In this document: positions 58,842-64,000 of the stretch, one piece after another
Layout of the letters: each line of letters begins with the position of its first letter
Position numbering within the stretch: the stretch's first letter is position 1
Source of the DNA: an uncultured bacterium
GTDB taxonomy: Bacteria; Planctomycetota; UBA1135; GCA-002686595
Assembly: GCA_905480285.1 (NCBI GenBank)
Contig: CAJQPT010000064.1
Location: 1-64,000, forward strand
Reading direction: 5' to 3'
Length of the DNA: 64,000 nucleotides
Translations under genes and position numbers: made by a program
Notes under the pieces: generated by a model
The model's input: only the letters and a program-made list of their open reading frames with translations
Database searches by the model: none
What the model was told of the DNA's origin: nothing

Positions 58842-60236
58842 ATGAGACTCTCCATCGAACCAGGCCCCCTTGGAACCCTGGGCGCGCTGCTGCTGGCGGG
58901 CGTGGCGTCGTCTCAGGAGCCCCAGCCGCTCATGGGCCAGCCCGTGCGCGGCCTGTCGGCTCAGGAGCTCGCGCTCTTCGAGGAAGGGCGGATGGCGTTC
59001 ATCGCTCCGCTGCCCCAGTCCGAGGGTGCGGGCCCCCTGTTCAACGAGCTCACCTGCGCCGGGTGCCACAACGTGCCGGCGATCGGCGGGTTCGGCGGTC
59101 GCCGGGTCACGCGCTTTGGCGTGGCGGCCACGAGCACGTCACCCTTCCAGGCTCTCGAGGGGCTCGGCGGGACCCTGCTTCAGGACCAGTCCTTCACGAT
59201 CGCGTGCCGCGAAACCGTGCCGACGCAGGCGACACACACCGCGCTCCGAGGGACGCCGATCCTGTTCGGCGCAGGGCTCATCGAGTCGATTCCGGACGCG
59301 ACCTTGGTCGTGCGCGCGAATAACCAGCCCTCCGGGCTCGTGGGCCGTGTGCACACGACCGTGCCGATCGAGACCCCGGGCGGTGCTCGTCGCATCGGGC
59401 GCTTCGGCTGGAAGGGCGGCATCGCGACCGTCGATTCCTTCTCGCTCGACGCAGCGCTGAATGAGATGGGGTTGACGAGCCAGTTCCTCCCGCAAGAGAA
59501 CGCGCCCAACGGAGACCTGGCGCTGCTCGCCCAGTGCGACACCGTCGCCGATCCCGAGGACATGCCGGACGCCGCGGGCTTCACCCGCACGGATCGCTTC
59601 ACCCACTTCCAGCGCTTCCTCGCGGCCCCCGCGCAGACTCCGCGGAGCGGGATGGCCGGAGAGGCGGTCTTCGAGGCGGTGGGATGTGCGGACTGCCACG
59701 TCGCGAGCTACGTGACGGCTCAGGTGCCAGAGGACGCGTTGTCCGGGCAGACCATCCAGCCGTACGCCGACTTCCTCCTTCATGACCTCGGCTCGCTGGG
59801 TGATGGCATCGTCGAGGGGGAGGCCACCGAGACCGAGATGATGACGCGCCCGCTCTGGGGGCTCGCCCAGCGGCCGAGCTTCCTCCACGACGGGCGCGCG
59901 ACCGGGGGCACCTTCGAGCAGAACGTGGCGGCGGCCATCGCCGAGCATGGGGGCACGGCGACTCCCTCGGCTCAGGCCTTCGCGGCGCTCTCCGCCGCGG
60001 AGAAGGACCTGGTCTACCGCTTCCTTGGCTCTCTCGGCCGCGCAGAGTTCGACTGGGATACGAACAACACCATCGATGAGTTCGACTGGTTCTTCATTTA
60101 CCCCCTGATGACAGGACCGGAGCCGGCGACCCCTCTCTCCCCTGACGACACCGGGGCCATCGCTGACGTGGACCAGGACGGAGACTTCGACCTGGTTGAA
60201 TTCGGCAAGCTCCAGCGCGCGTTCACCGGACAGTGA
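58842..60236 (+). CDS. Secreted di-heme oxidoreductase with dockerin-like tail
   Basis: A 464-residue DHOR-family protein related to MauG/cytochrome c peroxidase. It has an export signal, two c-type heme sites (CAGCH near residue 74 and CADCH near 285) and the family segments AGPLFNELTC, ILFGAGLIESIPD, and RPLWGLAQRPSFLHDGRA. Residues 404-464 form a separate module with two calcium-loop-like repeats (DTNNTIDEFDW and DVDQDGDFDLVEF), like a dockerin. It lies 11 bp upstream of a cohesin-like gene. The electron partner is unknown. Confidence 0.83.
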   Translation: MRLSIEPGPLGTLGALLLAGVASSQEPQPLMGQPVRGLSAQELALFEEGRMAFIAPLPQSEGAGPLFNELTCAGCHNVPAIGGFGGRRVTRFGVAATSTSPFQALEGLGGTLLQDQSFTIACRETVPTQATHTALRGTPILFGAGLIESIPDATLVVRANNQPSGLVGRVHTTVPIETPGGARRIGRFGWKGGIATVDSFSLDAALNEMGLTSQFLPQENAPNGDLALLAQCDTVADPEDMPDAAGFTRTDRFTHFQRFLAAPAQTPRSGMAGEAVFEAVGCADCHVASYVTAQVPEDALSGQTIQPYADFLLHDLGSLGDGIVEGEATETEMMTRPLWGLAQRPSFLHDGRATGGTFEQNVAAAIAEHGGTATPSAQAFAALSAAEKDLVYRFLGSLGRAEFDWDTNNTIDEFDWFFIYPLMTGPEPATPLSPDDTGAIADVDQDGDFDLVEFGKLQRAFTGQ

Positions 60237-61300: not shown

Positions 61301-64000
61301 ATGATTGCACCGCTCTTCCTCTCGTTGGCCGCGGTCGCGACCGCCGTCGCTGGCCCGCAGGAGCCGGGTCCCGACCGGGCGGGCGACGTGGAGGCGTTTG
61401 TCGAGGCGCAGGCCGATTGGATCGGTGCCCTCAAGAGCTGGGCTGAGGGACGGGGACAGGCACCCTTCAGCGAAGCGGCCAAGCTGACGGTTCCCGGCGG
61501 CGAGCCTTCGGTCGTCGACGAAGGGACCGTGCGCCTGGCCCGAAGCGCCCGGGATGGGGGAGCGCGCCGCCGGACGGATGCGGCGGGCCTGCGGGACGCG
61601 CTCCTCGGCGGGCAAGGGGTGCATGATCTGGCCAGCGTGAGCACCAAGGTCCTGGCGGCGGTCGCCGCAGACGGGGGATACGACCTTGAGCTTCGGTTCG
61701 AGGCGGAGGCCCCAACTGAGGCCCCAACTGAGGCCCTTGCCAAGGCTCCGCTCTGGCAGGCGGTCTCGACGGCCACCGTGAGCCTTCGGCCCTCGCCCTC
61801 GCCAGCGGCCGCTGGCGTGGAGGTTGAGGAGTGGGACTGCACCGCTCTCAGCGTCGACTCCTGGGAGTGGGCCTCCAGGACCGGCGAGCTCTTCGTCGAG
61901 CGGACCCTGGGCGTGATGGGGCCGGACAAGCGGGCGGCGAGGTTGCTAGGAGTCGGGATGGATCGTTGGGCGCAGCGGCTCGACGACCCGTCTCGGTCGT
62001 CCTGGTTCGGTCACCAGGGGATCGCCGCAGGCGACGTCAACGGGGACGGACGCCCGGACCTGCTGGTCGCCATGCCGAGCGGGCTGCCGAACATGCTCCT
62101 GTTGCAGCAACCGGATGGGACCGTGCGGGACGTGGCGCGCGAGGTGGGGCTCGCCTGGCTCGACGACACCAAGGGTGTGCTCCTCGCTGACATGGACGGC
62201 GACGGCCGGCTCGACGCGGTCTCGTCCCTCGGCCACGTCCTCGTCGTGCAGCGGCAGGACGAGCGTGGCCGCTTCCAGATGGCGGGCTGGGGCGTCGCCC
62301 CTGACGAGGCACCGTTCTACGGGATCAGCGCCGCGGACGTGGACGGGGACGGGGACCTCGACCTCTTCGGGGCGCGGTATGTCTCGACGCACTACGCCGA
62401 CACGGTCCCGGTTCCTTTCGAGGACGCCCGCAACGGGCCCTCGAACGTGCTCTTCCGCAACGACGGCGGACGACTCGTGGACGCCACCGCGGCCGCGGGG
62501 CTGGACTCCGGAGGCGGGCGATTCAGCCTCCAGGGGACCTTCGGAGACTTCGACCTCGACGGCGATCCCGACCTGTATGTGGTGAACGACTTCGGCCGGA
62601 ACCAGCTCTTCGTCAACAGGGGAGGGCAGTTTGTGGACGAGGCGGCGGCCTTCGGTGTGGAGGATCAGGGAGCCGGCATGGGGGCGTCCTGGTCCGACTT
62701 CGATCGGGATGGGGACCTCGACCTCTACGTCACCAACATGTTCTCCTCGGCGGGACGCCGGGTCGCGTTTCAGGAGGGCTTCGCGCCCGAGAGGACCGAG
62801 GAGGAGCGGGCGGAGATCCGCCGGCTGAGCCTGGGGAACAGCCTCTTCGTTCGTGATGGGGCTCGCTTCGTCGACCGGTCCGATGAGGCCGGCGTACGGA
62901 TGGGGCGCTGGGCCTGGGGCGCCGTGTTCGCCGACCTGAACGCTGACGGTTTCGACGACCTGGTCAGCCCGGCCGGGTTCCTGACGGGGCCAGAGCCAGG
63001 CGACCTCTGAAGCTCGTTCTGGCGGCGCGTGGCGCCGCAGCCGAGCTCCGGGGAAGGCGCCGGCGACTACGTGTCGGCGTGGGGGGAGATCGCTCGGTCC
63101 ATGGAGTCGGGTGTCTCGTGGAGCGGCCACGAGCGGAACGTGGCCTGGCTAAATTTGGAGCGCGGCGAGTTTGTGGACGTCTCGGCGGTCAGCGGGCTCG
63201 ATCACGCGGAGGACGGGCGGGTCGCCCTCCGCTGTGATTGGGACGGAGACGGCGACCTGGACCTGTGGCTGCGCTTTCGGAGCGGACCGACCCTGCGCTA
63301 CCTGGAGAACCAGGCGGATCCGGAGCGGCACTTCGCCTTCGATCCGGGCGTGCCAGGCGCATCGGTCGTGGTCGAGACGCGTCTCGGGGAAGTCGTGCAC
63401 CGTACGCTCCTCCAGACCCGAACGGCGGACGGGTACCTCGCCGGTGTTCGTCAACGTGCGGTGCTCGCCTTGCAACCGAACGAGGTGGTGCTCGATGGCG
63501 CGGCCCTCGCCTCGCAAGGGGCCCGGGTGGTGGAGAGGCCGGAGCCCCGGCCAGCACTGGCAGCCGGTGAGCTGCAGCCCGTGGACCTGCCGGCGCGGGT
63601 CGTGCTGCGCTCGTCGCTCTCTCTTCCGGGGGAGTGGCTCGGCCAGATGGGCTTTGAGCGGGGCCGGGCGCAACTCGTCATCGTGGAGGACCCTGATTGC
63701 GCCGCGTGCCGCGAGGTCCTGCCGGCGGCGGTCGCCGCCGTCGAACGGGACGGTCGCCTGGGGCTGACCCGGCTGAACACGCGGAACCCAGCGGCTGGTT
63801 CAGCCGTCCGATGGTTATCGATGATCGCAACGCACCTCCTCGGCCCCGGGGCCGAACTTGACACACCGCTGTCGCTGCTGGTCGGGCCGGACGGGCGGCT
63901 GGAGGTCGCTCGCGTGGGTGACCTCGAGTGGGGCGATTTGTCGCGCGATGTCGGCTGGTTCGGCCTCCAGCCCGTCCAGGGGGCGTTTCGGTCGTCCTTC
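61301..64000 (+). CDS. CRTAC1-family FG-GAP/VCBS protein with in-frame TGA (possible selenoprotein); 3' end beyond window
   Basis: An exported protein starting MIAPLFLSLAAVATAVAG. Calcium-loop FG-GAP/VCBS repeats follow (GDVNGDGRPDLLV, ADMDGDGRLDA, ADVDGDGDLDLFG, FDLDGDPDLYVV, SDFDRDGDLDLYV, ADLNADGFDDLV). Codon 570 is TGA (63008-63010). The same frame continues for 330 codons to the window edge with clear family sequence: SSFWRRVAP right after the TGA, SWSGHERNVAWLN, CDWDGDGDLDLWLRF, and a thioredoxin-like end with CAAC (Cys800/Cys803). Either TGA encodes selenocysteine, is read through, or is a mutation or sequencing error. If it acts as a stop, the product is 569 residues (61301-63010). 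Confidence 0.75.
63008..63047 (+). promoter_or_regulatory. In-frame TGA followed by a bacterial-SECIS-like hairpin
   Basis: Directly after the TGA, agctcg (63011-63016) pairs with cgagct (63042-63047). Above a small internal loop, ct-g (63019-63021) and cggcgc (63023-63028) pair with gcgccgcag (63032-63040), with G63022 bulged. The apical loop is gtg (63029-63031). A G at the first loop position and 18 nt between the UGA and the loop satisfy the published bacterial SECIS constraints (G in the first two loop bases, 16-37 nt spacing). GC richness makes chance hairpins common, so this is suggestive only. Confidence 0.5.

Follow-up and report, generated by a model that had tools for sequence, protein, structure and literature searches.

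The window, a stretch of 64,000 nucleotides from an uncultured bacterium of the Planctomycetota, ends inside a gene of the CRTAC1/FG-GAP type that carries a TGA in its reading frame, and the question that this locus raises is whether the codon terminates a short protein or is read as selenocysteine (Sec). The sequence-only reading had put forward a possible selenoprotein. This proposal is now strongly supported, in the absence of protein-level evidence.

Reading frame, domain architecture and neighbouring genes

The gene started at ATG 61301 on the forward strand, as do all features of it described below, and comprised 937 codons in total (61301-64000, with the last 114 bases past the window and the end read on the contig). 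From the ATG, 569 open codons preceded TGA 63008-63010, the single in-frame TGA of the gene (residue 570), and 330 open codons followed up to the window end; past it, the contig added 38 codons to the frame and then a stop. The sequence-only reading had described 569 open codons, one TGA and at least 330 open codons after it, and had taken both sides for one protein; both statements held. FG-GAP repeats were found both 5' and 3' of the TGA, and the whole length could be aligned with congeneric orthologues at 71-80% identity. The same TGA was present in four congeneric genomes, and substitutions were third-position-biased both upstream and downstream of it, which indicates selection at the protein level on both halves. 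TGA is the normal stop here, as had also been claimed, because 39 of the 43 long open reading frames of the window terminate in it.

The encoded protein consisted of a probable signal peptide, an N-terminal domain, an FG-GAP propeller, a UnbV/ASPIC domain and a TlpA/AhpC-like domain, which is followed by TPRs in most relatives. The signal peptide (residues 1-18, 61301-61354, MIAPLFLSLAAVATAVAG) was inferred from the sequence without a predictor, and AlphaFold placed a helix at residues 3-16. The CRTAC1-type FG-GAP beta-propeller that contains the Sec (61958-63310) was assigned by Pfam (FG-GAP_3 and FG-GAP), by the AlphaFold model (pLDDT 83, pTM 0.87) and by a PDB match, murine CRTAC1 (9etn, E 1.4e-22) being the best fold match of the model. 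A divergent UnbV/ASPIC domain occupies residues 675-745 (63323-63535); Pfam PF07593 recognized it in 39 of the 40 members aligned, and the window copy itself scored below the Pfam threshold. Membership in the CRTAC1 type was judged by two features, of which the FG-GAP beta-propeller fold was met, and the UnbV/ASPIC domain after the propeller was met by 39 of the 40 relatives. The C-terminal TlpA/AhpC-TSA-like thioredoxin-fold domain (residues 765-899, 63593-63997) was recognized in 32 of the 40 members by Pfam AhpC-TSA; the family profile matched TlpA (1jfu, E 1e-19), and an alpha/beta fold was predicted. It contained a CxxC motif (CAAC, residues 800-803, 63698-63709) in nearly invariant columns, which confirms the thioredoxin-like CxxC that had been noted near the C-terminus; the motif goes with the presence of Sec and is proposed to be its redox partner.

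In the AlphaFold model, a helix in the loop region of the propeller (residues 569-577) held Sec 570 in its first turn. A first-turn position in a helix activates thiols and selenols, as in thioredoxins and peroxiredoxins. The residues D568, L569, U570, S571, F573, W574, R575 and V577 were invariant across 40 aligned members.

No conserved operon was found around the genes of the family, and their neighbours gave no consistent hint on the substrate. Recurring neighbours, read by eye, included tandem paralogues and sulfatases, and in Acidobacteria also TonB receptors. Two genes upstream of the selenoprotein gene, the window encodes a di-haem oxidoreductase or putative peroxidase (58842-60236, forward strand; Pfam DHOR, E 2e-33), to which no link has been shown. 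Directly 3' of the selenoprotein gene, just past the window end and on the same strand, lies a gene for an FG-GAP repeat protein without a TGA (L009:14161-15942). The same locus harbored, on the reverse strand, a frame resembling NadA (quinolinate synthetase; L009:18560-19993) and another resembling deoxyhypusine synthase (DS; L009:17262-19031), which overlap in different frames of one strand; this overlap, if nothing else, seems odd. In anammox bacteria, a CRTAC1-family FG-GAP gene is reported between hydrazine-synthase-like subunit genes in several clades (PMC12758564, 2025), and its membership in the Sec family has not been established.

Conservation of the UGA codon, the hairpin and the decoding machinery

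A protein search of 60 related genomes recovered over 100 homologues in which TGA occurred exactly once, and in all of these that were examined it was in the same column. At least 163 distinct homologous sequences carried TGA at exactly the Sec site. The family motif around this site was D-[L/T]-U-[S/T]-x-[F/Y]-W-R, represented in the window copy by D-L-U-S-S-F-W-R (residues 568-575, 63002-63025). Of the 174 homologues bearing the motif, 163 had TGA at this codon and 11 had a sense codon; TAA or TAG occurred at the site in none of the 174, and either could have shown up there, since the extraction required the frames to be open except at the Sec codon. Sequences with TGA were distributed over several deep subfamilies (DLU.SFFWR, DTU.STYWRHVV, FUTHFWR, and one with WRTVVR), and they included paralogue subfamilies 28-41% identical. 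The source genome contained three TGA genes of the family, and in two further paralogues the site codes for Gln; the two other Sec paralogues are L193 (contig 234, DTU.STYWRHVV) and L192 (contig 288, DLU.SSFWRHVV), and the Gln paralogues, L194 and L195, are on contigs 136 and 135, respectively.

A DNA pattern for D-L-UGA-S-F-F-W-R was also run on 84,980 species genomes and returned at least 117 stretches. True homologues accounted for 107 of the 117, including 44 from Planctomycetota, 43 from Verrucomicrobiota, 18 from Acidobacteriota and two unplaced. The remaining 10 stretches, including one each in Lokiarchaeota, Neobacillus and Edaphovirga, were rejected as chance matches: they showed no homology, and their frames closed no more than about 20 codons past the site. 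The comparison with relatives that the sequence-only reading had called for therefore found TGA at the site and no Cys form, and it went further than that reading in showing a large family, present in three phyla, without a Cys-containing counterpart.

The UGA was followed by a bacterial SECIS-like hairpin (63022-63038; GCGGCG CGUGG CGCCGC), with a stem of 63022-63027 paired to 63033-63038 and a loop at 63028-63032. In the main subfamily, the hairpin took the form GCGRCA-GGUCG-UGUCGC, with a 6-bp stem and a loop starting 18 nt after the UGA. Across 65 distinct sequences, 96.4% of the cells were paired, and compensatory double changes were observed in four of the six pairs and in 35 cells; none of 500 shuffles matched these pairing and covariation values. 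Sliding the partner strand by one to three columns reduced pairing to at most 72%, and RNAalifold recovered the same helix except for one pair. In the sense-codon homologues, which have nearly the same amino acids, pairing was lost and fell to 9-18% of sequences at some positions. Compared with synonymous shuffles, the hairpin of Sec genes was also more stable, with a mean z of -2.3 and the same value for the window copy; non-Sec genes, with a mean z of -0.45, showed no such excess (Mann-Whitney p 1.7e-7 between the two groups). TTG encoded the Leu before the UGA in 91 of 117 cases; among 589 Leu codons of the flanking sequence, 74 were TTG.

Bacterial SECIS elements carry an apical loop about 16-37 nt from the UGA, with a G among the first loop bases. 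The family hairpin met this rule, with its loop 18 nt after the UGA and GGU or CGU in the loop. Conservation of the hairpin was one of the checks that the sequence-only reading had suggested; it was borne out, with covariation, and the apical loop 18 nt downstream given by that reading was confirmed. Its stem beginning at the base after the TGA was correct for the window copy; the lower stem that starts there is an additional, non-conserved element, and only the upper helix is conserved in the family. The claim of a G-first apical loop held in part: the five-base loop CGUGG is G-first only if the closing C-G pair is counted as stem. In the WRTVVR / WRAVVR subfamily, the hairpin appeared to be displaced by one base and to enclose a loop of 4 nt.

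The source genome (4.5 Mb in 339 contigs) contained all four components of the Sec machinery that the sequence-only reading had proposed to look for, namely a tRNA-Sec (69 bits, anticodon TCA), SelB (above the cut-off), SelA (454 bits) and SelD (327 bits). SelA adjoins SelD on contig 25, and the SelD gene itself contained a TGA in frame, within the usual GUxxK context. Co-occurrence was assessed in 294 genomes of Planctomycetota, of which 47 had a high-confidence TGA motif; high-confidence and doubtful sites were sorted by eye on the matched letters, and 10 of the 57 motif-positive genomes in the phylum scan had only doubtful sites and were left out of the count. A strong tRNA-Sec was found in 43 of the 47 genomes with the motif versus 139 of the 247 without it (Fisher p 1.2e-6). 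The four exceptions all had SelB above the cut-off, so missing contigs likely explain the absent tRNA-Sec. In G031, a genome of the same family, no tRNA-Sec or SelB was found above the cut-off and no TGA form was among the listed matches. These results strongly support decoding of UGA 63008 as selenocysteine within one 937-residue protein, although there is no chemical evidence of selenium.

Replacement of selenocysteine and a putative redox pair

The homologues without TGA were single continuous proteins, and the residue at the Sec site was Gln, Glu, Ala, Asp, His, Asn, Ser or Gly. No true Cys was found at this position in about 30 non-Sec rows; an apparent Cys (L233) belonged to a short misaligned fragment, and the full match of the same protein had Glu. 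Cys homologues at the Sec position, which are usual for selenoproteins but not strictly required, were therefore lacking. In a tree of the propeller region, Sec was the reconstructed state at the midpoint root, an arbitrary rooting, and four to seven changes of Sec state were inferred, depending on the sample. Paralogues that have Gln, Glu or Ala in place of Sec have been retained, so part of the role of the protein may not need Sec.

The CxxC of the thioredoxin-like domain was the only nearly invariant Cys pair in the family. It was present in 134 of 148 Sec proteins versus two of 25 non-Sec proteins (Fisher p 6e-17, kinship ignored), and most of the non-Sec proteins kept the TlpA-like domain and had lost its cysteines. 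The sequences share ancestry and are thus not separate observations, and a fair test counts the four independent losses of Sec; CxxC was lost alongside in about three of these and the opposite was seen in none, which is not significant. CxxC tracks Sec across the family, and on this basis the two are inferred to form a redox pair, with Sec as the catalytic nucleophile and CxxC as its reductant. This inference rests on four losses only, and the distance between Sec and CxxC was not measured. No CxxC was detected in 14 of the 148 Sec members, seven of which had no detected thioredoxin-like domain at all; a CxxC in the same chain is therefore not essential, and these members might use a partner in trans. 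In the WRTVVR / WRAVVR Sec subfamily (L200-L206, L229), the thioredoxin-like domain was undetected in most members, and locus L204 had two copies of this subfamily in tandem.

In the proposed mechanism, SelB would bind the hairpin just 3' of UGA 63008 and bring Sec-tRNA-Sec, so that the codon would be translated as selenocysteine 570 and a single 937-residue exported protein would result. According to the alignment and the model, the Sec would be situated in the propeller loop region among invariant polar and aromatic residues, a setting that resembles an active site. Its selenolate is inferred most likely to perform redox chemistry outside the cytoplasm on an unidentified substrate, with the CxxC in the thioredoxin-like domain of the same polypeptide as its reductant. 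Taken as a whole, an exported selenoprotein with Sec 570 acting in redox chemistry together with CxxC is very likely, although protein-level evidence is lacking.

Alternative explanations and significance

The main rival accepts the insertion of Sec 570 and assigns it the function of a metal ligand or structural residue instead of a redox catalyst. This remains possible, as the replacements Glu, Gln, Asp, His and Asn are possible ligands or hydrogen-bonders and Cys is never among them, and as the thioredoxin domain was undetected in seven Sec members. Metal binding also has precedents, in the Ca2+ bound by FG-GAP propellers and in the metals of some beta-propeller enzymes. On the other hand, Ala and Ser, which are poor ligands, were also seen at the site, and most non-Sec homologues were without CxxC, which fits a loss of redox function.

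The possibility that the UGA is a true stop, giving a short propeller protein with a separate downstream frame or occasional readthrough without Sec, is all but excluded. In its favor, TGA is the usual stop in the genome, and GTG 63029 could begin a downstream frame of 361 codons. However, SFFWR, which lies between the UGA and this GTG, belongs to the most strongly conserved protein segments of the family; non-TGA homologues are continuous; the site codon is TGA in 163 of the 174 motif-bearing homologues and sense in 11; and the hairpin covaries and vanishes in sense-codon homologues. An explanation by a pseudogene, a sequencing error or a local reassignment of TGA (for example, to Trp) found no supporting point and can likewise be all but dismissed. 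It is refuted by the recurrence of this TGA across three phyla, in over 160 distinct sequences, by third-position-biased substitution on both sides and by the use of TGA to end most other genes of the window.

For the selenoprotein reading, the nearest known systems share only part of its features. The CRTAC1 family (FG-GAP and ASPIC/UnbV; mammalian CRTAC1, PDB 9etn) has the same propeller fold and UnbV/ASPIC domain, whereas the present family adds a UGA-encoded Sec at a helix start, a TlpA-like domain and often TPRs. Thioredoxin-fold bacterial selenoproteins (TlpA/redoxin, peroxiredoxin and UGC-type TlpA) share a SECIS-decoded Sec and a thioredoxin-fold domain with CxxC; in contrast, the Sec described here is in a beta-propeller and is not part of a UxxC or CxxU, and the sample contained no Cys homologue. 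Sec encoded by UGA is shared with the families of PMC13188914, some of which likewise lack a simple redox motif. Table 1 of that inventory (2026; 119 prokaryotic selenoprotein families or subfamilies), from which the families of Haft and Tolstoy 2025 were also taken, contained no CRTAC1, FG-GAP, VCBS, UnbV or propeller entry. No NCBIfam 20.0 model scored above its cut-off for the Sec propeller family, and the literature searched, which did not include non-open papers, yielded nothing joining bacterial selenoproteins with the FG-GAP or CRTAC1 family. A study of planctomycete selenoproteins (PMC4807772, 2016) named no FG-GAP or CRTAC1 protein in its main text, S9 Table being excluded. As far as could be checked, with existing RefSeq annotations outside the check, the decoding follows the standard bacterial Sec route, and the protein family, the fold around the Sec and the lack of Cys forms are new.

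Standard selenoprotein discovery presumes Cys homologues (PMC13188914; PMC12013277), and the family could be overlooked for this reason; as its non-Sec relatives never have Cys, screens for Cys/Sec pairs would miss it. A bolder reading, for which the evidence is evenly balanced, is that these proteins constitute an ancient class of exported selenoenzymes, built on a propeller with an essential Sec and without a Cys-based equivalent, that occurs widely and in several copies across Planctomycetota, Verrucomicrobiota and Acidobacteriota, that catalyzes a reaction needing selenium, and that has been hidden by Cys/Sec-pair discovery methods.

The family is apparently among the larger undescribed families of bacterial selenoproteins, with several copies per genome and a probably old origin, and the three phyla that carry it are common in the sea and in soil. 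It puts Sec in a fold missing from the 2026 prokaryotic inventory, and its non-Sec relatives without Cys show where discovery by Cys/Sec pairs is blind. Such genes are likely truncated at the UGA by automatic annotation, and thus many entries labeled as CRTAC1 family may be cut short. The family also hints at what maintains the Sec trait in lineages with few recognized selenoproteins.
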